Shown: positions 10,528 to 50,913 of the stretch, one piece after another
Numbering within the stretch: the stretch's first letter is position 1
Layout of the letters: each line of letters opens with the position of its first letter
Origin: Erodium maritimum
Taxonomy: Eukaryota > Streptophyta > Magnoliopsida > Geraniales > Geraniaceae
Direction of reading: 5' to 3'
DNA: 64,000 nt
Assembly: GCA_963921825.1 (NCBI GenBank)
Contig: OY997593.1
Location: 48,530,039 to 48,594,038 of the forward strand
Program-made: the position numbers and the translations under genes
Notes under the pieces: model-generated
What the model saw: only the letters and a program-made list of their open reading frames with translations
The model's database searches: none
What the model was told of the DNA's origin: nothing

Positions 10528-12360
10528 TTTTTTAATCAGCAGTGCATATATTAATAGAAAATCTCTTTAGAGGTTGAAGAAGTACAAAGTTTGTCTACAG
10601 ACTTAAACAAAAAACCACAACAAAGAGTTTGGCGCTCAGAAACCTGACACGAGCATGACGCTTATAAACCTGACACGAGCATGGCACTCATAAACCTGAC
10701 ACGAGCATGACGCTCGGAATACAACCACGAGCATGGCGCTCGGAATACAACAACGAGCATGGCGCTCAGAATACAACTACGAGCATGACGCTCGGAATAC
10801 AACCACGATCATGACGCTCGGAATACAGCCACGAGCAAGGCGAGTAAAATCCAACTGTCGAACCTCACCAGCAAAGATCCAAGCCCTATCCTTGATTTGC
10901 TAAACCGACTCCCACCTCAATAGAGTTGCCCAACTAAGGACAACAACTATAATGCCGGCGGCCAACACCACTAACGGCTGAGACAGATCCGAATTACCAT
11001 GCGAACCTTAGCAGAAGGCTTCTGCGGGGCAAACAGCACCCATGAAACCCGCCGGCGGTCAACGCCTTTAACCGACGAGCTCGACCCACCACCGGGTCGA
11101 GATGAAACGAAACCAAAATACTAAAGAAGCATGCACGAATAGGACATGCTTAGCTTACCAAGGGAAAAGGACGAAGACAACTTCAAAACTGACCATCATG
11201 GCATGCACCCGTGCCGGCCCTCGACACGAAACCGGCCAACACCAAGAATCGCCAGTAGGGGACCTGGTATTTCTACCGAACACCAGGCATGCCTTTCTGT
11301 AAGACCTCGGCTACCGCCGATGAGGTCAAAAACACCAACCAAAGCCAAGAACTCCGGAACCGAGAGTCACCCAAAGCCTAACCCTATAACCGAGGCTTTT
11401 CCTAGCAACGAACCGAGCTGACATCACACGTCCTCACGCACCCCTACTTTCGACAGAGTGTAAAAAGCGCGACAGCCAACTCGGACGACTTCGATCTCAC
11501 GGAGGGTCCGCTTAACGCTTCGGCCAGCACCGATAACGCATGAAGAGACCCAAAATTTCTTCCAACCGGAGCCGAGAGAGGGGAGCAGCGATTCTACCCC
11601 TGGGAAGCCCGAGGAGGCCGGGATAACCATCCGCGGCACCAGGGAGGGTCAAGACCAGAGGGCGGCAGACCAAGGAGGTTGGGCAAACTGAACAGAACAA
11701 CGCTGAACTCCGGGCAGACCACTCCGGCAAGCCTCCGACGACGACCTGAAGACTAGCTAGCTCCGGTGACTGGCGAAGCCTCCGCACCGGCCAGACGAGA
11801 ACCAGATCTGACAGGAAAATAGCAACATCGCCCGAGCTCCACAACCCAAGGACCAGCGAGGCTCCGGAGCAGCAAACTCGACACCTTCCGCCAGCGAAGG
11901 AAGATCTGACAGGCCATGGAACCCGAGCTCGGACCCCACACCACTCCTCCGCCGGAGCAAAAGATCGGAGAAGAGGGGGTTTTAGATCTGGGCGGCAGTG
12001 AGCCGACAGATCCGCCACCTCCTCGGGACTTCCAGTCCGGCCGGAACCATGACGAAACACCACCAGAGGACCGGACCTTCACTGGCGAGCAACACGATCC
12101 GGCGGGCAATCCAGTCAGAGAGCAAAAACCACGGGCAGAAGAGGGAGGAGAAAAAGAGAGATGAAAGGAAAAAAGGGTGGAGGAAAGAGGGGAAGGGGGA
12201 AAGGAGAAGCCTCCGCCAGCAAGAACCATGGTCGGAGCTCTGGTCTTCACCGGTGGGGGTAGATCGGGAAGGCGGCACCGAAAAGAGCAAGTAGGGTTTG
12301 GGGGAAGTTTTTTAGAGAGAGAAGGATGAGACGATACATGAAAAATATCCAAAACGAAAC
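10528..12360 (-). mobile_element. RT-less non-LTR retroelement C with 17-bp TSD
   Basis: About 1.8 kb between ATATTTAGGTTAGTGTT (10511-10527) and ATATTTAGGTTAATGTT (12361-12377), one mismatch. A short T-run at the left end fits a minus-strand poly-A tail. The GC-rich body has minus-strand frames (12352-11753 and 12063-11512) without a domain I recognise. A 26-bp tandem repeat sits near the 3' end. No reverse transcriptase is seen, so it is probably non-autonomous. Confidence 0.65.
10630..10850. repeat. 26-bp tandem repeat in retroelement C
   Basis: About eight imperfect copies of CACGAGCATGACGCTCGGAA plus six bases. The first units carry a variant half (CATAAACCTGA in place of GGAATACAAC). 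Confidence 0.8.
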
Positions 12361-12660
12361 ATATTTAGGTTAATGTTAAGAATCAAAGTTACTTGATTTT
12401 GAGACTCTAACATACTTAACGTGCGAATTGGAATTCGGTATCGGACTTGACATGTGAACCGTTGGGATTTGGTCTGAATTAGGACGACATAAAATGAAGG
12501 TACATGGAGATAAATCAGGTTCTGATACCATATTAACATCCTATTCACTTAAGAGTTAGAATTGGTACGGCGGCACAACAGTATGCAGTCAAAACTGTTA
12601 CTGGCAAGGTTGTAAAACACGTTAGGCGCTAGTCGGACGGATTACGGTCTTAGGCGCTAT

Positions 12661-12692
12661 CACTACTGTTGATCTTGACTTGGGTGACGGAT
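12661..12692 (+). repeat. Left terminal inverted repeat of the CACTA element (outermost)
   Basis: CACTACTG, nine bases, then ACTTGGGTGACGGAT. It pairs with the right end at 28668-28699 (CACTACTG, nine bases, ACTTAGGTGACGGAT on the minus strand). Extra copies of this terminus start at 13757, 14851 and 15911. Confidence 0.88.
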
Positions 12693-13310
12693 CTGATCCG
12701 TCACCCAGGTTAGCTTATCCGTCGGCCTGGATCTTGACTGACGGATACATCCGTCGGCCAAGATCCGTCGGTCAGGTCTCGTCGGCCAAGTATTTGGCCG
12801 ACGGATGCGACAATCCATCGGTAGACTGAACATCGGCCCGACGGATCCCATCCGTCAGCCAAAAATGATCACTTTAGTCACAGATTCGATCCGTCAGTCT
12901 GCTTCAGTGACCCTGCCGACGGATCATACTCGTCAGCCAAGAATTTGCACCTGACCAACATATCAGACCCGTCGGCAAGGTGGAACGACTTTCCTGACGG
13001 ATGATACCCGTCGGCAGGGTGATATCGCTTGCCTGACGGATCATACCCGTCGGCAAGGTGGAATCTCTTGTCAGTCGGATCATTCCCGTCAAGAAAGTGT
13101 TTGCACCATGCCGACGGGTCGTATCCGTCAGGCAAGTGATCTCACCTTGCCAATAGGTATGATCCGTCAGTCAAGCGATATCACCCTGCCGACAGGTGCG
13201 ATATGTCAGGCAAGGGATATCACCCTACCGACGGGTGCGATCTGTCAACCAGGTCTAAACTTGTCCGACAGATGTAGATGCTTGTATCCGTCAGCCAAGT
13301 TTGTGTAGAA
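12661..13310. repeat. Subterminal dyad repeats of the CACTA 3' end
   Basis: More than a dozen copies of a dyad built from GACGGAT and ATCCGTC with a few bases between (for example GACGGATCTGATCCGTC at the first). Many are extended by GGCC or GCCAAG. In En/Spm the TNPA protein binds repeated subterminal motifs, so these are the candidate binding sites here. Repeated in units 2-4. Confidence 0.8.
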
Positions 13311-13648
13311 AAACAAAAAAAAAAATGTTTCAAAATTCATGCACCCAACCGTGCATTAAAATGTACCTGTTCCTGTACCATCCAAACCGTAATAACAGCA
13401 AGCACACATACAAACCATAAACACGGCAACCAAACATCCAACCGACATTAACAAATATAGTAGTTCTAAATAAGTTTATCAGTGCACAGAACATAAAAAG
13501 TTATCAGTTCATGTATCCAAATAACATAATGTTCATAAGAAAAAGGGGAGGGCTGACTAAGTTAAAGATGGCAGGGCTGATGGCGGGGTCTTTGAAGCCG
13601 GAGTCCCTGACGGTCTGACAAAAGAAGGCACCATGGTGTCTGTTGAGT

Positions 13649-14742
13649 GAGTTAGAATTGGTACGGCGGCACAACAGTATGCAGTCAAAACTGTTACTGG
13701 CAAGGTTGTAAAACACGTTAGGCGCTAGTCGGATGGAAAACGGTCTTAGGCGTTATCACTACTGCTGATCTTGACTTGGGTGACGGATTTGATCCGTCAC
13801 CCAGGTTAGCTTATCCGTCGGCCTGGATCTTGGCTGACGGATACATCCGTCGGCCAAGATCCGTCGGTCAGGTCTCGTCGGCCAAGTATTTGGCCGACGG
13901 ATGCGACAATCCATCGGTAGACTGAACATCGGCCCGACGGATCCCATCCGTCAGCCAAAAATGATCACCTTAGTCACGGATTCGATCCATCAGTCTGCTT
14001 CAGTGACCCTGCCGACGGATCCTAGTCGTCAGCCAAGAAGTTCCACCTGACCGACATATCAGACCCGTCAGCAAGGTGGAACGACTTGCCTGACGGATGA
14101 TACCCGTCGGCAGGGTGATATCGCTTGCCTGACGGATCATACCCGTCGGCAAGGTGGAATCTCTTGTCAGTCGGATCATTCCCGTCAAGAAAGTGTTTGC
14201 ACCATGCCGACGGGTCGTATCCGTCAGGCAAGTGATCTCACCTTGCCAACAGGTATGATTCGTCAGTCAAGCGATATCACCCTGCCGACAGGTGCGATAT
14301 GTCAGGCAAGGGATATCACCCTACCGACGGGTGTGATCTGTCAACCAGGTCTAAACTTGTCCGACAGATGTAGATGCTTGTATCCGTCAGCCAAGTTTGT
14401 GTAGAAAAACAAAAAAAAATGTTTCAAAATTCATGCACCCAACCGTGCATTAAAATGTACCTATTCCTGTACCATCCAAACCGTAATAACAGCAAGCACA
14501 CATACAAACCATAAACACGGCAACCAAACATCCAACCGACATTAACAAATATAGTAGTTCTAAATAAGTTTATCAGTGCACAGAACATAAAAAGTTATCA
14601 GTTCATGTATCCAAATAACATAATGTTCATAAGAAAAAGGGGAGGGCTGACTAAGTTAAAGATGGCAGGGCTGATGGCGGGGTCTTTGAAGCCGGAGTCC
14701 CTGACGGTCTGACAAAAGAAGGCACCATGGTGTCTGTTGAGT
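13649..14742. repeat. Tandem unit 2 of the CACTA 3' end
   Basis: 1094 bp, nearly identical to unit 1. Carries its own copy of the outside flank and a CACTACTG terminus at 13757 preceded by TAT. Confidence 0.88.
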
Positions 14743-15802
14743 GAGTTAGAATTGGTACGGCGGCACAACAGTATGCAGTCAAAACTGTTACTGGCAAGGT
14801 TGTAAAACACGTTAGGCGCTAGTCGGATGGAAAACGGTCTTAGGCGTTATCACTACTGCTGATCTTGACTTGGGTGACGGATCTGATCCGTCACCCAGGT
14901 TAGCTTATCCGTCGGCCAAGATCCGTCGGTCAGGTCTCGTCGGCCAAGTATTTGGCCGACGGATGCGACAATCCATCGGTAGACTGAACATCGGCCCGAC
15001 GGATCCCATCCGTCAGCCAAAAATGATCACCTTAGTCACGGATTCGATCCATCAGTCTGCTTCAGTGACCCTGCCGACGGATCCTAGTCGTCAGCCAAGA
15101 AGTTCCACCTGACCGACATATCAGACCCGTCAGCAAGGTGGAACGACTTGCCTGACGGATGATACCCGTCGGCAGGATGATATCGCTTGCCTGACGGATC
15201 ATACCCGTCGGCAAGGTGGAATCTCTTGTCAGTCGGATCATTCCCGTCAGGAAAGTGTTTACACCATGTCGACGGATCGTATCCGTCAGGCAAGTGATCT
15301 CACCTTGCCGACAGGTATGACCGTCAGTCAAGCGATATCACCCTGCCGACAGGTGCGATATGTCAGGCAAGGGATATCACCCTACCGACGGGTGCGATCT
15401 GTCAACCAGGTCTAAACTTGTTCGACGGATGTAGATGCTTGTATCCGTCAGCCAAGTTTGTGTAGAAAAACAAAAAAAATGTTTCAAAATTCATGCACCC
15501 AACCGTGCATTAAATTGTACCTGTTCCTGTACCATCCAAACCGTAATAACAGCAAGCACACATACAAACCATAAACACGGCAACCAAACATCCAACCGAC
15601 ATTAACAAATATAGTAGTTCTAAATAAGTTTATCAGTGCACAGAACATAAAAAGTTATCAGTTCATGTATCCAAATAACATAATGTTCATAAGAAAAAGG
15701 GGAGGGCTGACTAAGTTAAAGATGGCAGGGCTGATGGCGGGGTCTTTGAAGCCGGAGTCCCTGACGGTCTGACAAAAGAAGGCACCATGGTGTCTGTTGA
15801 GT
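14743..15802. repeat. Tandem unit 3 of the CACTA 3' end
   Basis: 1060 bp. Lacks about 34 bp of one dyad near 14910 compared with units 2 and 4. Terminus at 14851. Confidence 0.88.
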
Positions 15803-16893
15803 GAGTTAGAATTGGTACGGCGGCACAACAGTATGCAGTCAAAACTGTTACTGGCAAGGTTGTAAAACACGTTAGGCGCTAGTCGGATGGAAAACGGTCT
15901 TAGGCGTTATCACTACTGCTAATCTTGACTTGGGTGACGGATCTGATCCGTCACGCAGGTTAGCTTATCCGTCGGCCTGGATCTTGGCTGACGGATACAT
16001 CCGTCGGCCAAGATCCGTCGGTCAGGTCTCGTCGGCCAAGTATTTGGCCGACGGATGCGACAATCCATCGGTAGACTGAACATCGGCCCGACGGATCCCA
16101 TCCGTCAGCCAAAAATGATCACCTTAGTCACGGATTCGATCCATCAGTCTGCTTCAGTGACCCTGCCGACGGATCCTAGTCGTCAGCCAAGAAGTTCCAC
16201 CTGACCGACATATCAGACCTGTCAGCAAGGTGGAACGACTTGCCTGACGGATGATACCCGTCGGCAGGGTGATATCGCTTGCCTGACGGATCATACCCGT
16301 CGGCAAGGTGGAATCTCTTGTCAGTCGGATCATTCCCGTCAAGAAAGTGTTTACACCATGTCGACGGATCGTATCCGTCAGGCAAGTGATCTCACCTTGC
16401 CGACAGGTATGACCGTCAGTCAAGCGATATCTCCCTGCCGACAGGTGCGATATGTCAGGCAAGGGATATCACCCTACCGACGGGTGCGATCTGTCAACCA
16501 GGTCTAAACTTGTTCGACGGATGTAGATGCTTGTATCCGTCAGCCAAGTTTGTGTAGAAAAACAAAAAAAATGTTTCAAAATTCATGCACCCAACCGTGC
16601 ATTAAATTGTACCTGTTCCTGTACCATCCAAACCGTAATAACAGCAAGCACACATACAAACCATAAACACGGCAACCAAACATCCAACCGACATTAACAA
16701 ATATAGTAGTTCTAAATAAGTTTATCAGTGCACAAAACATAAAAAGTTACCAGTTCATGTATCCAAATAACATAATGTTCATAAGAAAAAGGGGAGGACT
16801 GACTAAGTTAAAGATGGCAGGGCTGATGGCGGGGTCTCTGAAGCCGGAGTCGCTGACGGTCTGACAGAAGAAGGCACGATGGTGTTCTGCTTA
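15803..16893. repeat. Tandem unit 4, continuous with the TNPA gene
   Basis: About 1.09 kb, terminus at 15911. Unlike units 1-3 its right side runs on into the rest of TNPA, so it is the copy still joined to the body of the transposon. Confidence 0.85.
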
Positions 16894-18651
16894 GTGGATG
16901 CCCAAGAGTTGAACAACTCCCGGAATTGAACTTGTTCCGCAGCTTGGGCAGCAATCCTGGCCTCCATTTCTAGGCGCTGCTCCTCCATCAACCGGCGTTG
17001 CTCCTCCCATTTCTGAGCGAACTCAGCCTGTTGATCAGCCAAGCGAGTCTTCAGCTCTTCTAGCTCCTCAGACGAGCTGACTGAACGCGCACTCGAGCAC
17101 CCACTGGCTCCCAGATCCCGTTGGGTTGGGAGCTTGACCGCCTTCACGATGCCTTATTGGAGTCTGCCCTTCTGGTGTTTACCCGTGATAATCTGGATGA
17201 GGGGGAGCTCTTCCTCCAAAGTCAATGCCTTCGCAACAGTAGGCGATGAACCCTCGCACTCCGTCACATGTGACTGCGATAACCGCTCACGGGCCTCATC
17301 CACAACAGCTTTGGCCTGTGCCTGAGATACATAAAACACCAATATAATTTACAGTAATATACGATACATGATAGAAAAACCCATAATCGTATTACCTTAA
17401 AAATAAGTGATGCACTAAATGTAATTAAAACAATATATACCGCTCTTTTCACGTTCTCCTTGTTGAGGTCATTTTCCTTTGTGTAGACCTCGACGTAGGC
17501 GTCGCAGCGTGGAAGCATGGAGGATTTGGCAAGAAAGCGTTTGGCCCGTTTTGCGAGCGGCATACTACCCCCGTGGTGTGCAGTCAGGTTATGTGCTCGA
17601 GAGGCCTTCCCATTGTCACTCAATTTCTACAATAAACGAATCAGATGGTAAACATTTATAATTAACACTCTAATTCTAAACTAATTATTGATAACTCGTG
17701 ACTAGTAATTTACATAATTTACCAAACACAATAATAAAGTGCTTACTTTGAACTCTTTTGATTTGAAGTGCTTGCAGAGCCAACGGAACTGCTCCTCGCG
17801 TTCAAGGAACTCCAGCGGTGTGGGTATGTGTATCTCAGCATCGGGGTGCTCGGGGTCTTTGTACTTCGGCTCCATTTTGAGGACCCACTCATGGATATCA
17901 TACTTCCAATCACAGTAGCGGTTGGATGCCGTTTACATGACAAAATCCAGAAGCTTGTTAAAGTGTGGTCCGGTTTCGAACTCGTACAACATCTGAAAAA
18001 TAAAGACACCAGCATTAGTAATTATATAAGAAATAATTACATGAATCAATGAATGGGAAAAGGTAATGTACTTACGCTGAGCTGGTAGAACATAACCTCC
18101 TTAGCACTTTCAGGAACTTCATGGAAGTACGCCTGGCCCATGGGGATGTAAGTCCGCACTATGGACCCAATCACCCGTACGGCATCCTCCCGCTCAAGCG
18201 TCCCTGTCAGGTGTTTACCGTTATGGCCCAAAGTAAATTTTCCCCCTGGCGGGGCCAGATCCTTGAGCCTACGGTGGAGGTTCTTGTTGGTCACAATACC
18301 TTGCTTCCCGGTCTTGGTGTTTGTTACGGTGGAGGCCACCTCTCCTCCAGCCAGCATGGCAGCCACATCTTCATCGTCCTCCACTAGTTTTTGGGAACGA
18401 ATGCTCTGGACATTGTCCTAGTTGGTGGTAGATGCTGCCTCACTACCACCGGGAGAAGGGGCTGCCTCACTACAACCGGGCGAAAGGGTCTCGCAGTCTC
18501 GAAGGCGCCGCACTGTAGGTGCCCGAGCCGTTGTATTTTGGGTGGAGTCTTGGGTGGTTCCACCAGATGCAGAGGGTTGCGCTCGGAGGGCCTCGAGGGC
18601 GCTCAAGAAGTTGAGGCGGTTGTAGAATTTGCTATAATTTCTCTTTCCCAT
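16803..18651 (-). pseudogene. TNPA-like CACTA protein (Transposase_24 / Ptta-En-Spm family), decayed
   Basis: Four exons with canonical GT-AG introns fit the minus strand: 18651-18076, 17992-17747, 17626-17441 and 17321-16803. Exon 1 begins MGKRNYSKFYNRLNFLSALE; later parts match the Transposase_24 pattern: NRYCDWKYDIHEW in exon 2, KLSDNGKASRAHN in exon 3, VDEARERLSQ in exon 4. The C-terminal part (17100-16880) is a charged, glutamine-rich probable coiled coil (KTRLADQQAEFAQKWEEQRR). In this family the protein binds subterminal repeats and assists the TNPD transposase. In-frame stops are seen at about 18418 in exon 1, near 17936 in exon 2 and at 17154 in exon 4, so this copy is probably inactive unless the true splicing avoids them. 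Start chosen at the first ATG after a CAG acceptor at 18653. The last codons are repeated in tandem units 1-3. Confidence 0.78.
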
Positions 18652-18653
18652 CC

Positions 18654-19581
18654 TGCGAACTCATGTAAACTCAAATCAAACTTTGAATTAGAAAATATAG
18701 AATAGAAACTCATAAAATAAAATGCAATCCTATAGATATCTCACCCATAAATTTAAAGTATACAACAGTCCGGTGCTAATGAGTGAATGGGTGAATTTAA
18801 ATCAAGGATATGTTTCAACACACAAACATTTAAATATCTAATTACCGGATATTTATGAATTTCTCTGAATTTGCACAAACAAAGTAAATAAATAATACTC
18901 ATGTATCTGTGACCTTATATTCAGTAAGGTAACAAATCTTATAATTATACTACCCTGAAGTGCAGGAGGGGAAGAGCACACAGTCTTAACCCTAACAAAG
19001 GCAATCAATTAAAAATGAAAACAGGTCTTGTACTCAAATATTGTTACCATTAAGCTCAATAAGGGAAATCCTAGTCTGACAGTAATTAAGATTGACCCGT
19101 TTTCTCTAATCAACAACAAAGCAGGAAATCTAGTAGGGTTGGCCAATTTTTCTTTAACAAAGCAATTATTTTATCAACCAATAGAGGTAGAAATCATAAT
19201 CTAACATACTAACTCCTAACCTAACCTCGTCACGATTACTAAAGAACAAATGTGTACTTACTGGATTCGAACCTGATAAACCATTAGGGTTTAGTAAAAG
19301 CTCAATGTGTTAGGAACCCTATAACTGTACCCAATTTATCATCAATCCATTTTAGACTGTAACACAATGGTCATTTTGGTCTTTTGAAATGGTTAAATCA
19401 CAATCACAGCCAGCCAAAATCACAGCCAATCCAAGGATCGTTTCAAAAAAATTATGTTCTTTCTTCAACAAAAATTTAGGGCTTTGTAGGGGTTTCAACT
19501 GAAGATAGTAGAAGAAGATGGTATGAGAGGCACGTAGGGGTTTCAACTGAAGATGGTAGAAAAAGATGGTATGAGAGGCAC
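18654..19581 (-). other. Probable leader intron of TNPA, AT-rich
   Basis: AT-rich stretch between a donor-like GTACGTG on the minus strand at about 19581 and an acceptor CAG just before the TNPA ATG. No coding content seen. The intron is inferred. Confidence 0.4.
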
Positions 19582-19880
19582 GTACCCGTCGAAGAGGAGC
19601 GCGAAGAGGTCGGCCAAGACGAGATGTGGTCGGAGACGTTGACACTGGGGCGCGAAGAGGTCGGCGACGACGAGATCTGGTCGGAGACGTTGACGCTGGG
19701 GCGCGACGAGGTCGGCGACGACGAGATCTGCTCGGAGACGTTGATGCTAGGGCGCGAAGAGGTCGGCGACGACGAGATCTGCTCGGAGACGACAACCACT
19801 GGTCCACTACGACGTCCCTGCGGCGCGAATAGGTCGGCGACGAGAGGATCGGCCGAGAATGGTCACCGGCGACTCAGAGA
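19582..19880 (-). promoter_or_regulatory. GC-rich leader exon upstream of TNPA, with 51-bp repeats
   Basis: A GC-rich island in AT-rich surroundings, placed where the first, untranslated exon of TNPA should be. It contains three full and one partial copies of a 51-bp repeat. In maize Spm the GC-rich first exon holds the downstream control region that governs element activity. By position and composition this could be an equivalent. The repeats stay open in several frames (17-residue repeats such as SEQISSSPTSSRPSVNV), but none joins in frame to TNPA across the proposed splice. Confidence 0.45.
19621..19795. repeat. 51-bp tandem repeat, about 3.4 copies
   Basis: Units start at 19621, 19672, 19723 and 19774 with the core GAGATCTGGTCGGAGACGTT. 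Differences between units are single bases. Confidence 0.85.
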
Positions 19881-19959
19881 GAGAGAGAGAGAAGAAAGTT
19901 GAAGACGAATCGAGAAATGAGGGAAAAGGGAGGCGGACTCGGTCTTGACCTACGATATA

Positions 19960-21520
19960 GACCCCTACCGACGGATGCGTAGATCCATCGGCCATGTCCA
20001 AACGATGTCGTTTTACTACCAACACTTAACAAATTTTTGTCGAAATTGAAAAACCTGGCCGATGGATCTACGCATCCGTCGGCCAGCATAAGTTGACTAC
20101 CCTTGACCAAAACCACAAAACCCGTCGTTAATCCCGACTATCGTAGTATTGATAATTGACCGGTATAAGTACTTAGTATGCCTCATATACAACATAATAT
20201 CGTATATTACTCAGACATAACAGTTGATGGATCTCTGCAGCCGTCAGCCACCAGAAGTTGACTGTCAACGTTGACCAAAACCCCAAAACCCGTCATATTT
20301 CCCGACTATCGTAGTATTGATAATTGAACGATATAGGTACGTAGTATGCCTCATATACAACATAAGATCGTATATTACTCATACATATCACATACAGAAC
20401 ATGAACGAGACAAGGTCATACGTTATAAGCTGAATATGGTCATGCACATAATGGAACTGGCGATTTCGTTCAATACGTGTCGGTATCTCGAATATGATAT
20501 AATCAAGACCGCTCATCTCGTATGTACTATCCAAACTAGTATACGTATTTAAAAAAAACTATCATCGAACGGTTAATTCGTCGTTAATATTGTGGTCAAA
20601 TATGTTTTGTAAAATAGTCAACCAACTTTACCCACGTATTGGTAGCACTTGGCTGACGTATGTGTATCCGTCAGCCAAGTTGTCCTAACCATCCCGGCGT
20701 ATAGTCCGCATCCGTCGGCCATGTGTAAACGCTGTCGTTTTAATACCAACACTTAACAATTTTTTGGCGGAATTGAAAAACCTGGCCGATGGTTATATGC
20801 ATCTGTGGCCAGCACAAGTTGACCGACATTGACCAAAACCCCAAAACCCGTCATATTTCTCGACTATCGTAGCATTGATAATTGAACGATATAGGTACGT
20901 AGTATGCCTCATATACAACATAAGATCGTATATTACTCATACATATCACATACAGAACATGAACGAGACAACGTCATACGTTATAAGTTGAATATGTTCA
21001 TGCACATAGTGGAACTGGCGATTTCGATCAATACGTGTCGGTCTCTCGCATATGATATAATCAAGACCGCTCATCTCATATGTACTATCTAAACTAGTAT
21101 ACGTATGTAAAAAAAACTATCATCGAACGGTTAAATCATCATTAAAAGGCTGGTCAAATATGTTTTGCAAATTAGTCAACCAACTTTACCCACGTATAGG
21201 TAGAACTTGGCTGACGGATGTACATCCGTCAGCCAAGTGGTGATAACCTTTCCGACATATATGCTGGATCCGTCGGTAGAGAAATAAATAAATCGATTAT
21301 TGGACTTAATGATTTCTGTAATTCTCTTTCACATCATATATATGTTTATGTTGTTGTAAAACAATGAATGAACTCTATAACATACCAAAACATGCCAATT
21401 TGACGGGTTTATGCACGAATTTCAAACCGAAACAGAGCATTTGCTCTCTGTTTTATGGCAGTTGGATCCGTCGGCGAAGTACTGTCTTGACCGACGGATC
21501 TGAGCATCCATCGGGCAAGT
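19960..21520. promoter_or_regulatory. Intergenic region between TNPD and TNPA with dyad motifs and internal duplication
   Basis: The same GACGGAT...ATCCGTC dyads as at the element ends recur near 19970-20000, 20050-20085, 20225-20250, 20650-20720, 21205-21275 and 21465-21515. Three related segments begin near 20055, 20222 and 20783; the last two are about 558 bp apart and highly similar over about 300 bp (compare 20339-20560 with 20896-21110). The short open frames here are by-products of the repeat. A promoter for TNPA is plausible but not shown. Confidence 0.5.
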
Positions 21521-21683
21521 AGCAGGGCAGAGTAAAACAATTTTGTAGGAAAACGTCAACCCACCTGAAAAACAATTATATCCAATCATTGCATTTGTTT
21601 GAAGTTGATATTTGTGCACACATACAACACATTAGAACTTACATGTTTCTAACTACAATATTAGTACAAAGGCTTATATATAT

Positions 21684-24600
21684 TTAATCGGATTCATGTA
21701 TTTCGTCATTGTTGTATCCATGATCTTCGCAGTCATCTTCATTATTATCGTCGTTATCCTCCACATCATGTACCTCTTGGAGACCGCTATCAGAATGTGG
21801 TAGCACATTGAGTTCCGCTACAACTAGTGCAGTTTCAGGCTCGGTCTCTTGGTAAGGAGCGTCAACCTCGTACGAAATGGATGGCAAACGCTTTTCCAAG
21901 ATGAATAGTCCTCTAGGGGCAACCTTGTTCACGATCTTATACCCTCCACCCATTTTCGGGTCATCGATGTAGAATATCTGTTATGCACATTAAATAATTA
22001 GGAAAGCATCCAACAATGAAGTACAGTAATATATACAACTAATGCAACTTGCCTGTTTGGCCATGGTTGCTAGACAAAATGGATCGTCGCAATATGCATT
22101 TGTGTTGGTATTTATGAATATCAAACCATTATCTACTTTCACGGAATTTAGATCATACCATCGACAGTAAAACAAAACAACCGGCATCCGTCCAGTGTAC
22201 ATAAGCTCAACTACGTATACCAAGACACCGTAATAAGCTACACCGCCCTCTGCATTAAGCATCACACCACTGTTCTGTGAGCTTCTTCCTTTATCGCGCT
22301 GTTCGGACAGGTATTTCACACCGTGTACATGACATTGAGCATAATAATTTACTCTCTGCACGTAACGACTCAGAGCCTTTGATGCCATATATTGTTGATC
22401 GTCATCGGGATACGATTCCATCTGGGAATTTTTGCATACATTATTATTAATATATACACATTGATAAATGTATGTTTATATATATATATATATATAGGAA
22501 TACACGTTTAACTGATATTGAACTTACGGTTTCCTTGAACATTGAGCAAAATGTTCCAATTCGGTGTTGTAAATCGGTTGACCCTGGGTATTCCGTCTCA
22601 TAATCCTCTTTGAAATCAATCATCTCGGAGCTGAATTCTTCAGCATTCTGCATAGCGGTCCAATGAGCGATACACACGAATTCTTTGGTTAACAAGGGCT
22701 CCCATATCTGAATAGTTGGAAGCACATGTTTGGAAATAATTGAAATGCCCCATTTATCTGGCATCTCCGGATCCATGGCTCGTTTATCGAGGTACAAATT
22801 GATGAATGTCGCACATTGATGATTAATGTACGATTCTGCGATGCAACCCTCTGGGTATCGGTGGTTGCGCACCCATTTTTTGTAGTACCCCAATTCACGT
22901 TCCATCGAGAACATCCAATTATAGTCGACAGGACCGGTTTGTAGGACTTGAGATGGGAGATGTTTACATAAATCCACCATGATCGTGTGGAACGGCGGAG
23001 GGAATATCATTCCCAACTTACTGAGAATCAATACGATATCAACCTGCATCTCCTTTAGCTTCTTCTTTGAAATCTCCCTTGCACAGAGAGACTGAAAGAA
23101 ATTTGCAAGCTCACATATCACGGTAGCTACGTGCGGTGCCACATAAGGGCGTACAATGATGGGAAGTATACGTTGCAGCAAAACATGATTGTCGTGTGTT
23201 TTAAGCCCAAAAAACTTCTTATCCTTCACGCTTATCTTGTTTTTCAAGGATCCCGCATAGCCTGATGGAAACCTTATATTTGTAACCTTATCAAGCGCTT
23301 CACCACGTTTCTCAGGCTTGATCGTGTAGTCGGCATAAGGCATGAAAGTCTTGTTGCCCGTTGTTTTGGCCCATAGATCCTTATGCACACCCAATTCCTC
23401 CCACATTTGTCTGGCTTTCAAATCATCTTTGTTTTCCCAGGCAAGTCAAAAAGCGTCCCAATAAGATTGTCGTACACATTTTTTCAATATCCATCACGTC
23501 TAATGCGTACCTTGTCCCCAAAGATTTCCAATACGGGAGTTCCCAAAATATCGACGCATGTGTCCAACACAACCTTTTCTGGCCGGATTTGTTCTTCTGA
23601 GTAAACTTTGGATGTAACGACAGTTCGGGAAACTGAATGTCCGATATTTCTTCATATATTTCATATCCACTCTTTTCAGGGCGGGATTTTTTCATCTCCC
23701 GTTTACCGTTGATTTTTTTTATTTTTCCGTAATGCATGATTCTCTGGAAAGTCCTTCGGTGCTCCTACGTAGTACGTCCTATTATGACTGTGAACCCCTT
23801 CGAGATCATCCAGGCATATTGGACAAGCCTTATAACCCTTCGTCTGAATGCCTCCCAACATTTCCAAACTGGGAAAGTCACTAATAGTCGATAATACCGC
23901 CGCTCGCATCTTGAACGTTCGATTGTTGGATGCATCAAAGATTACAACCTCTTCGGACCACAACTTTTTCAAATCATCCATCAACGGTCTCATTCAAACA
24001 TTTAGGCACCTCCCAAGCAACTTAGGGTCAGATATCAACAGCGTTAAGATGTTAAATTCTTTCTTCATGCACGAGGTTGGAGGTAAATTGTAAGGCATAA
24101 CTACAATGGGCCACACACTATAAGGGACAACATTTGCACCAAATGGACTAAACCCGTCAGTTGCCAATGCAAGACGTACATTGGCAGCTTCAGATCCAAA
24201 ACGAGGCCACGTCCTATCGAAGTCCAACCAGCCTTCCCCGTCAGCTGGGTGAGTCATCTTATCCGGGTCGATCCTTCTTTCCTTACTACCATACCATTGC
24301 ATTTGCTTTGCAATATCAGGTGAACTGTACAATTTCTTTAACTGTGGAATAATGGGGAAATATCTAACAGTTTTCTTAGCCTTTGGTTTTCGCATTCCGA
24401 CGAGCTTCTCATAGCGAGGTGAATCACATTTGTAACACACATCATCTTTCGCATTAGGTGCATCGAATAAGATACAACCATTTTCACGTGCATGGTAAGT
24501 CTTGTAACCGATCCCGACACTCTTCAACACACTCTTTGCCTCTTTGAATGAAGACGGGTAATGATCCTCAGCCGGTAACAATGCTTTATGCAACACACAA

Positions 24601-25206
24601 GACGCAGTGAATGCTTCATTCGACAATTGATATTTCTCCTTATGAGCCATCAACTCCATGATGACCGTCAACCTATCCGTTGTCGCGTCTTTGTACAACT
24701 ATTTTTTATGCTCTTTCAATAACTTTGTGTAGTTGTCTGCCGCTTCTTGTGCAATCGACCTGTCAACATCCGCAATGTCATCGTCATCATGTACCAATTC
24801 ATCCATTTGTCCCCCACACCGAAATTGGAACACATCGTCCATATACTCCATAATTCCTGGATCGCTCTGGTGATCTTCATTCACTACTACAGTTGCGCTA
24901 CTTGATGAACCTCCAGTGTCCCAACTTCTTCTAATACTATTCATTACTTCTGTTAAGATAGGCATGTTAAATTTTTCACCGTGAAAAATCCACACATCGT
25001 AACCCCTCATCATTCTGTTCCGAATCAAATGCATATATATATATATCCGGCACAGTCTAGTAAAATGCGTTAAGACAACTACCGCACGGACACCTGTGTG
25101 ATTCAATATTAGGGAAAGTTGTCTGTATATATTCGATAAAAACCGCTACCCCTTCCATAAACTTCGGATCGTACTTACTTAAAGTCATCCAACTCTTATC
25201 AATATC
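21684..25206 (-). pseudogene. TNPD-like CACTA transposase (Transposase_21), decayed
   Basis: Minus strand, three exons: 25206-22528, 22421-22053 and 21977-21684. The N-terminal association domain lies at about 25200-25070 (WMTLSKYDPKFMEGVAVF, then RCPCGSC). Transposase_21 spans about 24500-23450, with LYSSPDIAKQMQWY, HPADGEGWLDFDRTWPRF, RLALATDGFSPFG, and IFWELPYWKSLGTRYALDVMDIEK. A DUF4218 region lies at 23220-22790 (LKTHDNHVLLQRILP, PEGCIAESYI). The last exons match the DUF4216 region (NSGVMLNAEGG, YYGVLVYVVEL, IFYIDDPKMGGGYKIV). It catalyses excision and integration in CACTA elements. The usual MDKSW start reads IDKSW here. In-frame stops occur at 24699 and 23994, and frame changes near 25080, 23715 and 23425, so it is not functional as read. 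Confidence 0.85.
21978..22052 (-). other. GC-AG intron in TNPD
   Basis: 75-bp intron with boundary CAG|GCAAGTTG at the left and ATAACAG|ATATTC at the right (minus strand). Removing it joins MAKQ to IFYIDDPK, the order expected for DUF4216. The donor is GC and not GT, a known minor class. Confidence 0.65.
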
Positions 25207-25690
25207 CTGATACACAGTCAATACTAACAACTATTGAACACAATATCTAAATACATATACACAACAAGAGGAACAAAATTTATCAAATAAACATACGTAC
25301 CGTTCTCGAGCTTGAAACAACTTCCACGACGCACGGTTCTTACCAATATCGAACACGAGCCACGAATCTTGTCAACGTCGAACAAGACAAAAGATTCTTG
25401 TCAATATTGACATAAAAATGGGAATCTTGTGTAGAGAAAAAGAAATGAAGGTGGGAGAGAAAAAAAAGATTTGGGAAGAAAGAAAGAGTTGGGAGATGAA
25501 AAAGAGATGGAAGAGAAGGTAAAGTTTTTTGAGTGGCTGAGAATAAGTCCAACAGAAAACACTTGGCCGACGGGTGCACGTATCCATCGGCCAGCTTTAA
25601 CAGATACACAAAAAACGCTGCCGTTTCAGCCCTGGACTCGTCCATTAAACGATACGCTGTCGTTTTTCCTTGGCCGACGGATGCATGTAT
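25207..25690. promoter_or_regulatory. Divergent promoter region between TNPD and the plus-strand frames
   Basis: Lies between the TNPD leader (minus) and the plus-strand leader exon. Contains two clear dyads, CCGACGGGTGCACGTATCCATCGG at about 25563-25586 given here as halves GACGGGT/ATCCATCGG, and GACGGAT/ATCCGTCGG at about 25675-25700. A probable TNPD leader exon ends at a donor GTACGTATG near 25300 on the minus strand. On the plus strand GCGTATTTAACTCCC near 25709 could be a TATA region. Confidence 0.45.
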
Positions 25691-25729
25691 CCGTCGGCCA
25701 GGAAGTTTGCGTATTTAACTCCCACGAAC

Positions 25730-25917
25730 CCTAGTTCCTCCCATTTCAGACTTCTCCCCATTTCCTCTCTTCTCTCAATCGCAGCCTCCCACTCCGTCTG
25801 GTCCGACGCCGTCCGCCACCAGCCGCCGCCCGCCACCCGCCGCCGCCTGCTCCAAAGCCCATGCCGCCGCTCTTCCTCTCTCTGCTCAAACGCCTCCATC
25901 TCCTCCCTCACTTCAAG
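25730..25917 (+). other. Probable leader exon of the plus-strand CACTA cassette
   Basis: Pyrimidine- and GC-rich stretch typical of a plant 5' UTR, ending TTCAAG|GTAATG, a good splice donor, at 25917. An ATG at 25861 opens 19 codons (MPPLFLSLLKRLHLLPHFK) that end in phase exactly at the donor. Joined by normal splicing to acceptors at 26519 or 27026 the frame would continue into frame A or frame B. This is inference from splice signals. Confidence 0.4.
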
Positions 25918-26519
25918 GTAATGTTTGAAATCTGTAAAAACACTTGAAATGGTTTTAGATTTATTTCAGAAAATTTGACAGGTTGATACCTGAGACGTGC
26001 AAAAGTTTGTATACTTTCATTTTTTTACTACTTAAATTTATATGAAATGGTTACTTAGGTCCCCGTTTTCTCTTCTTATAATCCATATGTCATAGGAACT
26101 ATTAGGGGTAATACCCGACCCGAATGGGTAGAGATTGGGTAGGGTATTGATCGGGTTTTGGGTATTAAAATCGGATAGGGTACGGGTATCACAAAATCCG
26201 AACCATACCCTACCCATTGCCATCCCTAGTTTTCGGACAGTTTAGTTTCAAAATAATTTAGGGTTTAAAGAATGTAGGGTTCCAGAAATAAGCTAATTTA
26301 GTTTCACAATAATTGTAGGTTTCAGGAATTTATGGTTGCAGAAATAATTAACCTTGTGTTGAATAAGGGTTTCCGGGAAGTTTAGTTTCAAAATAATGTA
26401 GGGTTTAATAAAATACGATACATGTGTGACAAAGATTGAAAAAGTTAGAAATGTAGGGTTTAATATAATGCACGATATGTTTGCATTCTGAAAAACAAGT
26501 TCATTCCTGTGTGTATTAG
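25918..26519 (+). other. Probable first intron of the plus-strand cassette
   Basis: AT-rich, from GTAATG to GTATTAG. Holds a MITE-like repeat at 26103-26228 and several scattered copies of GTAGGGTTTAA-like sequence at 26260-26465. Nothing coding seen. Confidence 0.4.
26103..26228. mobile_element. hAT-like MITE remnant, 126 bp
   Basis: Imperfect hairpin with ends TAGGGGTAATACCCG and, on the other strand, TAGGGATGGCAATGGG, which resemble TAGGGGTGGCAA-type ends of plant hAT MITEs. Inner arms pair as GGGTAGGGTAT and ATACCCTACCC. No convincing 8-bp target duplication. Confidence 0.4.
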
Positions 26520-26531
26520 GTTATCCTTTCG

Positions 26532-26852
26532 ATGGATGAAACCAATAGCACTAGTGTTGGGGAGAACAGCCTAACTGGGGCAGATCACATTGATGAAGAA
26601 GTTCTCGTAGTGACGGAAGTAGACTGGGAAAAATCAATGAACTTAGTGATGAACAAATTGCCTAGGGGACTTTCTTCGATGCACGAGGCAAAGACTCGCA
26701 TGTATATTAGGCGTCTGATTTCAGCTGAAGGAGATAGACTTAGAAAGCAAAGGGAAGAACGAGATAGGCTCGCCGCTGAGAGACACTCTGCTCAAAGCGC
26801 AAGACGGACTCTGTCTGATGGATCGACTTCCAAGCGCGCGTCCCGAGACTAG
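26532..26852 (+). CDS. Plus-strand CACTA frame A, coiled-coil protein of unknown function
   Basis: 106 codons from ATG at 26532, preceded 12 bases upstream by an acceptor-like TATTAG. I recognise no known family. The N-terminal half is acidic (LTGADHIDEEVLVVTEVDWEK); residues about 55-95 are a highly charged helix (RMYIRRLISAEGDRLRKQRE), likely a coiled coil. The same pattern recurs in frame B (RMRLLGLINREGRR), so A and B look like diverged duplicates. It lies inside the transposon, on the strand opposite to the transposases. It could be a captured host gene piece or an accessory transposon protein that pairs with another coiled coil. Expression is unknown. Confidence 0.45.
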   Translation: MDETNSTSVGENSLTGADHIDEEVLVVTEVDWEKSMNLVMNKLPRGLSSMHEAKTRMYIRRLISAEGDRLRKQREERDRLAAERHSAQSARRTLSDGSTSKRASRD

Positions 26853-27029
26853 TTTACTACTTAATTAGTGTCTGAAGGATGTTTAAATTAGGTTATATAT
26901 AAGTTCGTATTGTATGACTCATTGATTAATATGCTAATACATTTTATGAATGCTAATATACGTAAGTTTAAATTTGATTTCTGCTATATCCGTTTTGATA
27001 TAGTACTAAGATTTGCTTTCATTTAGTCA

Positions 27030-27463
27030 ATGGATGATAGAAGTAGAGTAGGGGAGAACATTATCTCAGATGATGAATATGATGGACCACAACAAGTGGG
27101 GCATGATTTGCATGCTGAGATGATGCGCTTATTCAACAGCATTCCAAGAGAGTCTTTGCCACTCACGAGAGCGGTATAGCAGCTGCTCGAATGAGGTTAC
27201 TGGGCCTCATTAACCGAGAGGGACGAAGGATTGCGGCTGAAGAAGCTGCTGAAAGAGAAAGAGTTGCTTCTGAACGAGCCGCTGAACGAGCTGCTGCAAG
27301 AGCTAGGCTTGAGGAAAGAGCTAGGCGTATTCATGCAAGGGTTGCTGCTATCTCAGAGTCTCGTACATCTTATGGAGCCACCTCCATGCGCGGCCCGAAG
27401 CATGACGCAAGGGTGTACGTGCAGTGGCTGAAAGACAACACGGAGCGAGAGGACGAAGACTAG
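27030..27463 (+). pseudogene. Plus-strand CACTA frame B, relative of frame A, with a frame break
   Basis: ATG at 27030, three bases after an acceptor-like ATTTAG. 49 codons run to a stop at 27177 (MDDRSRVGENIISDDEYDG...). A second frame, open through 27191-27463, continues with RMRLLGLINREGRRIAAEEA, an alanine/arginine/glutamate-rich probable coiled coil, and ends YVQWLKDNTEREDED. The two parts line up with the acidic start and charged helix of frame A, which suggests one gene with a frameshift near 27140-27170, or an unseen splice. Function unknown. Confidence 0.4.
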
Positions 27464-27696
27464 ACGCCTAGCTAAAATATTAATTTACTAATATGTAACG
27501 GATGTGTGTGAAGGATGACTGTTATTTCAATAGCACTTATTCTATGACTTTGTTTGAATGTTTAACGGTTGTTTTAAATGATTTTCACTTCATTAATTAA
27601 GTGTTGGTTTTTATGAATATTACTTCCGTATGCTTTGACTTCATTATTTGGGATTGATTATAATTGTAATTTGTTCTTTCAGTCAAGACAGGATAT

Positions 27697-28065
27697 ATGG
27701 AACCAAACTTTGATCGTCGACTCGAGTGTAGGTGGCGTCGACGTGAAAATGTAGGAACTGTTGTACCTGGTCCACATGGAGTCAACGCTGCAGCTCCCCC
27801 ATCGTGGGTCCAACAGTATTACATACTAGTCCAGGAAGCACATCAACGCTTCGACTATATTTTCGACCTGATGCGTGAGAAAGGTATTGACATACCTCCA
27901 CTCCCTGTTGTAGGCCCACATCATACCCCTCCGTGGATGAACGAGGTTCAAGATGATGATCTTCAAGCTATAGAGGAGCATGCGTGGTTTGGACGTTTTG
28001 TGGAATGGATGGAAGCGAACAAAGAAATGCACGAGCGTGTCATCAGAATATTGCTTGCTTCGTAA
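27697..28065 (+). CDS. Plus-strand CACTA frame C, unknown
   Basis: 122 codons, 18 bases after an acceptor-like TTTCAG at about 27680. Contains aromatic-rich stretches (WVQQYYILVQEAHQRFDYIF and WFGRFVEWMEANKEMHERV) and a proline-rich middle (GIDIPPLPVVGPHHTPP). No family recognised. It may be a last exon or a separate gene of the same cassette. Unlike A and B, its ATG is not in phase with the proposed leader exon. Confidence 0.4.
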   Translation: MEPNFDRRLECRWRRRENVGTVVPGPHGVNAAAPPSWVQQYYILVQEAHQRFDYIFDLMREKGIDIPPLPVVGPHHTPPWMNEVQDDDLQAIEEHAWFGRFVEWMEANKEMHERVIRILLAS

Positions 28066-28294
28066 CTATATTAGGCGTGTCTGTGTTTTCTTTTATGAGT
28101 ATGTTTAATGTTGTGATTCTGTGAACACATTATCTGGAAAATGTTTCCATAACTATTTCCAAACACATTATCTATGAACTGTTTTTTTTATATACGCATT
28201 GTTTCATACATATTTCATGTGTAATGTCGTTATGTTCATCGGGATACAGTTATATTCTTTCGTATATTGGCTCACTTTACCAACGGATACAAGT

Positions 28295-28499
28295 CACTTG
28301 GCTGACGGATTCAACATGTGTGGCTAAGGTTTTCTCACTTGGCTGACGGATGCAACATGTGTGGCTAAGGTTTTCTCACTTGGCTGACGGATGCCACATG
28401 CGTGGCTAAAGTTTTTCCACTTGGTTGACGGATACAACATGCGTGGCTAAAGTTTTTTCACTTGGCTGACGGATACAGCATACGTGGCTAAAGTATTCG
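28295..28499 (+). repeat. 42-bp tandem repeat in the CACTA 5' subterminal region
   Basis: Five copies of CACTTGGCTGACGGATNCAA followed by CATGNGTGGCTAAAGTTTT. Each contains half of the dyad found at the other end. Full dyads follow between 28500 and 28690. Confidence 0.8.
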
Positions 28500-28667
28500 C
28501 ACTTTGCCAACGGATAGGAGTTGCCTTATCTACGGATCTTGCATCTGTCGGCCAGGTGGTTCACTTGGGTGACGGATGCAGGATCCGTGACCTTAGTTTC
28601 ACCACTTGGGTGACGGATTGCTGTATCCGTGGCTAGAGTGCCGAAACTTAGGTCACGGATCCATTTT

Positions 28668-28699
28668 ATCCGTCACCTAAGTGGATTTCTGCAGTAGTG
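28668..28699 (-). repeat. Right terminal inverted repeat of the CACTA element
   Basis: Reads CACTACTG on the minus strand, followed after nine bases by ACTTAGGTGACGGAT, and is bordered by the TAT target duplication at 28700-28702. Confidence 0.88.
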
Positions 28700-28702
28700 T
28701 AT

Positions 28703-28918
28703 GCAGGGATTAATCAAAAATTAATCGGGGATTAATCGGATTATTATTTTATTATTTTTATTATATATTATCAAATTTATAATATATTATATAAAAGTAT
28801 TAATAATATCAAACATTAAATGTATTAAAAAAGCGTAAACATTATATTAAACTAAAAATATCATACAATTCTTAAAAGAAGATCAATAAATATGATTCTA
28901 TCGACTCAATTAGCATAA
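28703..28918. other. AT-rich flank right of the CACTA element
   Basis: Begins with repeated GATTAATCGG-type words (28708-28740), then is very AT-rich. Probably continuous with the DNA left of 12660 before the CACTA insertion and with 30233 onward before the LINE derivative insertion. Confidence 0.45.
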
Positions 28919-28931
28919 ACTTGTACACTTT

Positions 28932-30219
28932 TTTTTTTTAAAACGAGTATAGAGGCATTGTATTAATGTAGAACAACAACTTTACAGGGTAGGGCATAAC
29001 TGCCCAGGATTCCAGATATTTGTCCCGATCGATCGTAGTCCATCTAGCGCTCATGGATCCATAAAAATAGTCTGCTTTGAATCGCATATCCGAACTTAGG
29101 AGTTCCTCTCACCGACATTTCCAAAAGAATAAAACCCCAAAGACCTAATCCTGCTAGCCAACAATTTATTCGACCTAAAACCAAAATAAAGACCTGAAAA
29201 TAATGCCTTGATTGAGGATTTTCAAAGACTTCCCGGTAGTGGTAGACCCGGGTCTGTGGATATAGGCCCCAAAGAGGCCTTTCCACCCCCGCCGGGGCTT
29301 ATCCTTCTCCGCGCGGGGAGCCATGCCCCCCCCCCCTTCGTCTGCATCTCTTGGTCAGGTTCCTCCTCGTTATGCTCATGTGTGCGAGGTACTCTTTCGG
29401 AATCCCCAGTCCCGCTTCCTAGCCTGTTCTTCAAAGGTCGAGGACTGATTTCCGGATTATACTTCAACAGGCCTCTAAGGTTCGCCGGTATGCACTCCTG
29501 GTAGTAACGACGGGCTGGAACCCTAGAGCCGAGAGATTTGCGAGGCAACTGACCCTATGGCCGCAACCCTACTTCTCCCTCCATAGTAGAAGCGACCATT
29601 GTCGGTAAAGTGGATTCTTCCGTCAGAATGATCACCGTCACTGTCCTGGACCTCGAAAGCCTCGGGCCACGACGCTTGACCGGCGGCAAAGGTGGAGCTG
29701 GAAGCCTAGAGGGGTTCCATTGACCGGCGGGGATCTGGAAAAAAACCGGCGACGGTCGTGCGAGCCCAGATACAAGGGCCCCTGCATACGGCCGGTGGCC
29801 ACTCCCCCCGATTGAAGATAAGGCGCTGACAGGGGAAGATGCTTGCGGTAGGGTTCGAACATGTGCCAAGTTGGCACCGGGATGTGGTACCAGGGAGGTT
29901 GATCGGTGCGGCGTCGAACAGCAGATAGTGAAGTGCTGCAACTGTCCATGCACAACCCGAGGGGGGGCATGACGACGGTGTTTGCGTTTTAGGCGGGGGA
30001 GCGAGCGAGTAGGGGGTCCATGGGCGGTTTGGCTGCATGATGGGATCGGAGAGGGAGGTCGAGATCACTAGTAGAGTCGCTGGCGACGAGGGAGAACACC
30101 CCTGACGGGATCAATGTCGAACCCTAGATGGGTTTTGGGTGAACTCTATTAGGGTTTTTGAGAGCGCCTTCTACTATATGAATAGAACTTTAAACATGTA
30201 TATAATTTATTTATTTTAG
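28932..30219 (-). mobile_element. RT-less LINE derivative D with 13-bp TSD, same family as B
   Basis: About 1.3 kb between copies of ACTTGTACACTTT (28919-28931 and 30220-30232). The T-run at the left end is the minus-strand poly-A tail. The 3' region is homologous to element B at 8688-9892 (shared TTTGTCCCGATCGA and CATAGATC-like blocks, and the TTCCACCCCCGCCGGGG block). The minus-strand frame 29953-29555 is proline/serine-rich with no recognised domain. No reverse transcriptase. Confidence 0.7.
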
Positions 30220-30232
30220 ACTTGTACACTTT

Positions 30233-30908
30233 ATATGTTTGGAAAATAATTAAAAAAAGATAGATAACGTAAATAAAACTCAGGATGTAACACTTGAACG
30301 AAGTGTCCTATACCAGCTAAACTAGTATAATTTCAAGGTCTCGCTTAGTTTGAAACAGATTAGAAACTGTTTTTTTAATTACCGAATCCGACCCGACGTC
30401 TGACCGACCCGATCAATTAATCAGTCAGACGACGATTAATCGGTCATATTCCCCCCAAACGGCCTAGAACGTCGTGGGAGAATAAATCGATCGACAGAGT
30501 CCATTTCAACGTCAAAGCAGGATCTAGACATCTACAGGCGGAGATTTTTATATCGCTTGTTGTCCAACTACTCAAGTAGAGATAAACAATACACCACCTT
30601 CAAGCCTACCTAACATGTGACACTGACACTTAAACTACTTGCAATGAACCTCAGCTTCCAATTCACTGAATTCAAACGTTAAACTTATCCTCCAAGGCAA
30701 TTCATTAATGACAAAAATTTCATTTCACAACGGACTTGACCTCGAGCCTTTTATTCTCTTTATCCTTTTGATAATTGGGATCAAATCATCGGCGTATTTT
30801 CCCAAGTTGAATCCTCAATTATTACTTTTCCATTAGGTTAGTATATATTTACGGAAAGCTAAGTAATGTTAGATGCTCTTACACAAGGTTACATACATAT
30901 AAAAAAAG
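30233..30908. other. Unassigned interval, nothing recognised
   Basis: AT-rich with one GC-richer patch (30385-30500) holding ATTAATCGG-like words similar to the CACTA right flank. No coding content recognised. Confidence 0.45.
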
Positions 30909-32036: not shown

Positions 32037-32344
32037 ATGAATTTGGAGAAGAAGAAAGGCCTCTTCTCTAAAGCCATGGACGCCAAAAAGACCTCTTCTT
32101 TGTTTCCTTCTGCTCGGTCTTGATGTTGAGCTACGATCAGTTTTGTGCCATCGTTACTCGTTCAGGCGTCAAGGAGGCTCTGTCTCGAGTCATGGACAAA
32201 GGTAAGAACATGTGCGTTTTTCCTCCAATCAGCATAGACGAGAAGACGAAGGGAGGGCTCGTTGGAGGTGATGGGATTTCTTCCTTGAAAAAAGGAGTCA
32301 AGGTCCACCCTACTCAGGTTACGGTCCGTAGTCCAGCCGTGTCT

Positions 32345-38619: not shown

Positions 38620-39277
38620 TGTCACGCCCCAATTTCAGTAAACCGAACTCGGGACGCGAACGTTTAAAACATAAAAACACTTTGAAACCATTTCCATTAA
38701 AACACTTTACAATACCAGTTTAGTTCAACAAAATAATAAATACAATTTAAAACAAGTTCCAACAAGTGGACAAAAGTAGGTATCCGTCACTAGACTCAAA
38801 AACAACCCGGACTCCGCTCCTAGCTCCACAAGCTTCGAGAGCTCACCTAGTCCGTCCTGTGATCAGTACATGTAGGAAAAGAAGCTAGGGGTGAGCGTTC
38901 GCTCACCACCACGGATAACAGACTGACTACGGCATAATTAGCAGACAATGTCGGTAACACCAATAATAAAGTCTACACCGGGGGACACTGTCCCCAACCC
39001 AAGGACTCTGACTGATCATACACCCACTGTTACCTTCCTTGACCAACTCAACACTTTGACACGTAAAGTAGACCCGACACAACGATCACGACCTCTCCCA
39101 AGGACTCGAAAGAAACGACGCAACACCAAACAAGATCACAAAGGATCGCACACCAAACAAGATCACAAAGGATCGCAAACTAGCTGCTCAGTAACCTCCC
39201 TCACCAGACTCAACCTCAAACTCGTAAAAGTAAAACCGACACAACAAACAATGACGACCTTCCCCCAAAGACACGAA

Positions 39278-39516
39278 CACGGATCAGGCTAGCCGAAGAA
39301 TGCTCAGAACCTGCCGAGCCTCGTACACGGATCAGGTCAGCCGAAGAATGCTCGTAACCTGCCGGGACCCGGTCACGGATCAGGCTAGCCGAAGAATGCT
39401 CATAACCTTTCGGGATCCGGACACGGAACATACTAGCCGAAGAATGCTCAGAACCTGCCGAGGCTCGAGTTTGGTCAGGCCAACCGAAGAATGCTCGTAA
39501 CCTGCCAAAATCCACA
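39278..39516. repeat. 48-bp tandem repeat in the gypsy LTR
   Basis: About five copies with the core GCTAGCCGAAGAATGCTC. Also in the other LTR (about 54636-54874). Confidence 0.8.
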
Positions 39517-50870: not shown

Positions 50871-50913
50871 GGACATATTGGAGTTTAGATTGAAACTAGG
50901 GAAAGTGGGAGAT

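Follow-up and report, generated by a model that had tools for sequence, protein, structure and literature searches.

CACTA (En/Spm) elements have TIRs that start with CACTA and end with TAGTG, and they are associated with a 3-bp target site duplication (TSD) (PMC4158355). In En/Spm, the subterminal repeats are recognised by TNPA and function in cis in excision, and in the available text of the same report the subterminal repeats of the soybean element Tgmt* number 4 on the left and 24 on the right (PMC2613891). Duplicated ends have been described in another group of DNA transposons, the MULEs with tandem TIRs, where elements carrying a single additional end scarcely increase in copy number, a fate called 'death on birth' (PMC3310237); as far as the accessible part of that study goes, the formation of the tandem termini is left open (Ferguson and Jiang 2012, PMC3310237). 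A general model, in the portion of the text available, derives tandem repeats from pieces of transposons via end joining and non-allelic homologous recombination (PMC9659126). Judging from the titles and the opening lines of the abstracts of the open-licence literature, no CACTA element with duplicated termini and host flank has been reported.

The locus considered here lies in 64,000 nucleotides of Erodium maritimum DNA (the window; contig C6, 48530039-48594038), and it was compared with the genome as a whole (763 Mb, 40 contigs). It resembles Tgmt* in its terminal CACTA, 3-bp TSD, and asymmetric subterminal repeats, but it has four 3' ends, whereas Tgmt*, in the text available, is described with one end per side (PMC2613891). 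Tandem repeats near the CACTA 3' end are also found in Chenopodium Jozin; according to the accessible text, however, the Jozin monomer is a satellite (PMC8978399), while here the unit consists of a terminus plus host flank. As in the tandem-TIR MULEs, a terminal region has been tandemly duplicated and no further composite copy was found; in contrast to those elements as the available text presents them (PMC3310237), one side carries four ends, host flank separates them, and the path of formation can be read. Furthermore, the CACTA termini and tnp2 transposase set the locus apart from Mutator-type elements. Both kinds of step inferred below are proposed in the general model, whose figure includes TIR and TSD, but unlike the satellite birth treated in the available text of that work (PMC9659126), the present case is a single locus with legible steps and with host flank inside the unit. 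Maize P1-wr, as far as its accessible description goes, provides a parallel for duplication followed by misaligned exchange and for units that share blocks, but it is a gene array rather than a transposon end (PMC2686159). To the preliminary description, the present analysis adds that the flank is host DNA, as identified through empty sites and a private base, that units 2 and 3 are recombinant, and that no composite was found elsewhere.

The composite element extends from 12661 to 28699, and the minus strand encodes both its transposase and ORF2. Its termini are of the CACTA/TAGTG type, with CACTACTG at 12661 and CAGTAGTG ending at 28699, where it is followed by TAT. The 3-bp TSD typical of CACTA elements is present as TAT on both flanks and is supported by the empty sites described below. 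The single 5' end with its subterminal repeats occupies 28280-28699 (minus strand). It is the one full-length match to this end in the window (among the best 40 of 690 candidates), in agreement with the preliminary description, which had set four 3' termini against one 5' terminus.

The transposase region (22447-24698, minus strand) was recognised from Pfam matches and reading frames as two adjoining pieces of Transposase_21, the tnp2-type transposase domain (E 3.2e-29 and 1.3e-23), followed by DUF4218; a DUF4216 match is also present on this strand. An in-frame stop at 23996-23994 lies between the two pieces of Transposase_21, and because it splits them, this copy probably does not make a full-length transposase. 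A second gene, ORF2, lies on the minus strand at approximately 16803-18660, as judged by position and reading frames, and corresponds to the TNPA position. In the scanned frames (all but the frame at 17743-18021 and the first exon), it has no Pfam family above the cut-off. Its last codons fall within the innermost unit of the array. The tail that was first attributed to TNPA is thus called the ORF2 tail here, with TNPA identity being an assignment by position.

The interior of the element has other features. Two direct copies of ~490 bp (20226-20718 and 20788-21276) are 90% alike and carry motifs resembling those of the subterminal repeats. On the plus strand near the 5' end, opposite to the transposase, open frames of 110, 114, and 131 aa lie within 26520-28065; they have no Pfam match above the cut-off and may represent an additional, third gene in this CACTA family. 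Elsewhere in the window there is an array of a 26-bp repeat to the left of the 3' ends (10591-10850), and there are three pairs of direct copies. The 3.3-kb pair at 38620-41942 and 53978-57302 (96% alike, 15.4 kb apart, with many short tandem arrays) may represent the two long terminal repeats of a single retrotransposon; inside it, the 2.0-kb pair at 43834-45834 and 50601-52601 (99.4% alike) is perhaps the terminal repeats of a younger nested element. The third pair, of ~2.5 kb (32344-34937 and 59191-61710), is 92% alike.

Facing the single 5' end are four tandem direct copies of the 3' end, which start at 12553, 13649, 14743, and 15803, giving spacings of 1096, 1094, and 1060, with the fourth unit ending at ~16893. 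Every unit has the same order: a 108-bp flank with TAT at its end, then CACTACTG, the subterminal repeats, ~330 bp, and finally the last ORF2 codons. The termini formed by CACTACTG are at 12661, 13757, 14851, and 15911. The units differ from one another by 1.2-3.6% in pairwise alignment. All are on the plus strand: unit 1 (12553-13648), with the outermost terminus, is designated type A; unit 2 (13649-14742) and unit 3 (14743-15802) are hybrids; and unit 4 (15803-16893), the innermost, is type B and runs on into the ORF2 gene. The termini, unit spacing, and flank of the preliminary description, which had claimed four tandem 3' ends each with 108 bp of outside DNA, were recovered unchanged. Its 34-bp loss from unit 3 is real but somewhat smaller, since the deletion covers 32 alignment columns (165-196) and the other 2 bases are small indels; in the sequence, the deletion is flanked by two ATCCGTCGGCC 11-mers. 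Likewise, the roughly fourfold supply of TNPA-binding dyads claimed there holds as a count of motifs: GACGGAT and ATCCGTC together occur 16, 14, 14, and 16 times in units 1 to 4 versus 8 times in the terminal 500 bases at the 5' end, and these motifs are putative sites for TNPA.

The 108-bp flank is host DNA, outside the transposon, as had been proposed. Its inner part (12605-12660, plus strand) belongs to a dispersed host repeat, of which it forms the left margin and which was broken by the CACTA insertion. Matches to 26 other copies of this repeat begin at 12597-12606, with at most a few bases to the left held in common, in sub-groups. The right continuation lies beyond the element at 28700-28943 (plus strand), and the TSD TAT is at 12658-12660 on one side and 28700-28702 on the other. 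The repeat picks up again at ~30218-30557, beyond a second insert of ~1.27 kb (28944-30217). When the two flanks were joined (12301-12660 to 28703-29100), the resulting CACTA-free sequence aligned to all 26 of the dispersed-repeat loci examined (L013-L038, the best 26 of 36 places outside the window among the best 40 of 316 candidates); the junction is well spanned in 25 of these, and in L038 it is spanned by 5 bases, after which comes another break. The outer part of the flank (12553-12604, plus strand) was found in the array only. A query with 12345-12603 gave four candidates in the genome, and all four, when scored, proved to be the query itself and three 51-bp matches within the array, so this part was found nowhere else. 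(The genome search omits very common words, and its negatives are thus no proof of absence.)

One base within the flank ties the units to this locus. At 12618, all four units have C, whereas the other 26 copies of the repeat all have A. Consequently, the four flanks descend from this one locus, and the duplication took place after the CACTA insertion and across the border of the element, as the preliminary description had held. Several independent insertions were considered as a source of the four ends and were rejected, since all units have the same flank.

The location of the 108 bp between termini, like an internal spacer, could suggest instead that this segment is a normal internal part of a CACTA family with several natural 3' ends. 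The rest of the family speaks against such a design. Searches with the 3' end (best 40 of 494 candidates) and with two relatives as queries (best 40 of 468 and best 40 of 431) together gave at least 49 distinct 3' ends outside the window, some of them incomplete. In a sample of 26 of these family loci (L055-L080, each with 1.5 kb on either side of the match), the DNA examined contains a single 3' terminus in every case, and none of the 26 has the 108-bp flank, whose presence as a normal component of the family had been named at the outset as a refuting outcome. The terminal match begins at base 1 in 25 of the loci and at base 13 in L078. For 14 of the 26, a 5' partner was found by eye among the best 40 of 690 5'-end candidates, and in all 14 the single 3' end is flanked by a matching 3-bp TSD. 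Given also that half of the flank is a host repeat with a mapped empty site and that the other half was found in the array only, the probability that the segment is a family part is, within the 26 loci examined, negligible.

Other places were inspected for multiple ends. Among the matches listed, one same-strand pair of 3' ends lies within 20 kb (C5:9125695 and C5:9139993, 14.3 kb apart), but its flanks differ and it was read as two separate insertions rather than as a second multi-end case. Two smaller irregularities were seen in other copies: in L063, the ORF2 tail is repeated in tandem at small scale (~2361-2511), and at G000:C4:26340596-26341246, a 5' end has two overlapping matches with a shift of ~231 bp, as if the subterminal repeats had been expanded.

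The junction between the units provides a view of how the host DNA came to lie inside. At 13640-13660 (plus strand), and again near 14743 and 15803, the ORF2 tail passes into the host flank, with the sequence reading CTGTTGAGTG and then AGTTAGAATT. Beyond GAGTG the element sequence differs, and the host has AAG ahead of AGTTAG, so that ~1 bp is shared. The best 40 of 118 candidates gave no such junction elsewhere; the full-length matches are the three sites in the array. TE-derived satellites form long, homogenised arrays, and the locus differs from these in having four units at one place (again among the best 40 of 118 candidates for the junction).

With ~1 bp shared at the junction, end joining is a likelier source of the first duplication than slippage, as far as the anatomy of this one junction suggests. 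In favour of slippage during replication between repeated motifs, similar to what the available text proposes for the tandem-TIR MULEs (PMC3310237), the subterminal region contains many short repeats, and unit 3 lost its 32 bp between two 11-mers. However, at the breakpoints themselves, host and element have just the ~1 bp in common, and slippage as the source of the duplication is quite unlikely. Even less likely is alternative transposition acting on the ends of sister chromatids. Such transposition makes rearrangements for Ac/Ds, and this precedent counts in its favour; duplications of this kind are, however, expected to end at a TIR, while the borders here lie 108 bp outside the TIR and within ORF2.

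To polarise the changes among the units, two sets of outgroups were used, namely the 26 loci of the family and the 26 loci of the host repeat. Columns gapped in any unit or with <80% agreement among the 26 loci were left out of the rooted counts; two sites in the flank were added by hand, as were two indels (13163 and a tail deletion placed at 13640), 13641 and 13643 were omitted, and sites that vary inside the family itself (12926, 12929, and 12944) lie outside the rooted set. Derived changes common to units 2, 3, and 4 are found at four sites (12638, 12657, 12893, and 12974). These are followed by eight sites, from 13103 to 13361, that group units 1 and 2 or units 3 and 4, and then by six sites, from 13552 to 13640, with derived changes common to units 1, 2, and 3. 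The three groupings conflict on a rooted tree, yet they stay unmixed along the unit, occupying three blocks that do not overlap (p = 6.5e-7 for the 18 sites if their order were random). When only SNPs inside the element are used (2, 7, and 5, or 14 sites), the block order has p = 8.3e-5. Site 13092, derived in units 1, 2, and 4 and ancestral in unit 3, does not fit this pattern and calls for either a second change or its own small exchange. A cluster of changes beside the junction in units 1-3 was also considered and then set aside; first counted as 7 in 60 bp, it shrank to 4 after correction (P 0.0017, post hoc), because two changes came from the way in which the alignment had split a 1-bp deletion and a third was at a family-variable site.

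The three ordered blocks identify units 2 and 3 as hybrids, each of type B in its left part and type A in its right part, with different breakpoints. In unit-1 coordinates, the switch lies at 12974-13103 in unit 2 and at 13361-13552 in unit 3. The preliminary description had called for a tree of the units, but such a tree would mislead since two of the four are recombinant. These data also bear on whether the array could be an artefact of assembly. Polarised SNPs confined to a single unit number 7, 4, 1, and 7 in units 1 to 4, unit 3 has its own deletion, and the blocks are logically ordered. The differences between units argue against a plain copy error, as had been held earlier, and an assembly artefact is very improbable.

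Taken together, these results have led to the following model. A CACTA element inserted into one copy of the dispersed repeat, with TAT as its TSD. After the insertion came a tandem duplication, probably through end joining, of a stretch that begins 108 bp beyond the 3' border and ends within the last ORF2 exon, and the two resulting units, A (outer) and B (inner), would have diverged. An unequal crossover in which B of one chromatid was misaligned with A of another could then have produced the order A, B/A, B, and a second crossover, between B and the hybrid, could have yielded the present A, B/A, B/A, B. This history as a whole, with its insertion, two-unit end-joined duplication, and two unequal crossovers, is the simplest one and is considered highly probable.

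The exchanges themselves invite a different reading, in which gene conversion made units 2 and 3 hybrid and the four-unit array arose in another way. Conversion is discussed for plant tandem arrays in the available text on P1-wr (PMC2686159), and site 13092 hints at further exchange. However, both hybrids have the orientation B-left/A-right that a crossover requires if copies are to be gained, together with a single switch, whereas conversion is unconstrained in orientation and adds no units. It seems, then, that crossover rather than conversion made the hybrids, with the limit that two hybrids are few for such a discrimination; conversion is unlikely, albeit a reading that retains some weight.

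A rough time scale can be placed on the model of duplication and crossover. Over 1091 sites, units 1 and 4 show 39 differences (K 0.037). At a substitution rate of 1.3e-8 per site per year, the A/B duplication would be roughly 1.4 million years old, or 2.8 million years at half that rate. The few changes found only in unit 2 or unit 3 (4 and 1 polarised SNPs, plus the unit-3 deletion) make the exchanges look younger than the duplication.

Formally, a single 5' end is matched with four 3' ends in the array, all of them preceded by TAT, so that four nested 'complete' elements may be read from the sequence, and structural annotation could call four such elements here, all with TAT at either side. 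If the repeats at the four ends are recognised by TNPA, there would be four possible excision units with TAT on both sides. Use of the outermost end would take three host segments along, while use of an inner end would leave flank and solo ends behind. Because the transposase frame is interrupted, these consequences of excision are hypothetical. The preliminary description had envisaged copies moved from one terminus or another, but the genome search gave no sign of any terminus having been used to move the composite, and no composite element was seen elsewhere among the best 40 of 316 and the best 40 of 118 candidates or among the four candidates for the outer flank. Most likely, the element is at present an inactive relic or a poor substrate, with its mobility inert or impaired, and the outer 3.25 kb may serve as a decoy of putative binding sites.

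The duplicated host flank is an outside marker that dates the duplication after the insertion, and the mosaic units indicate growth by exchange. Viewed from the outermost end, the element contains three captured host segments; this is a simple route for host DNA to lie between transposon termini. Pack-CACTA elements have reportedly been proposed as agents of gene shuffling. Were the composite mobilisable in trans, it would carry host segments, with the choice of end setting how much. As a tentative and rather unlikely generalisation, a tandem duplication that crosses the border of an element may make host DNA internal to a transposon without transposase, and other host fragments and multi-terminus elements may have come about in the same way. 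If so, some of the host fragments carried by CACTA elements could be explained by this route, as could the origin of elements with multiple termini in other superfamilies.
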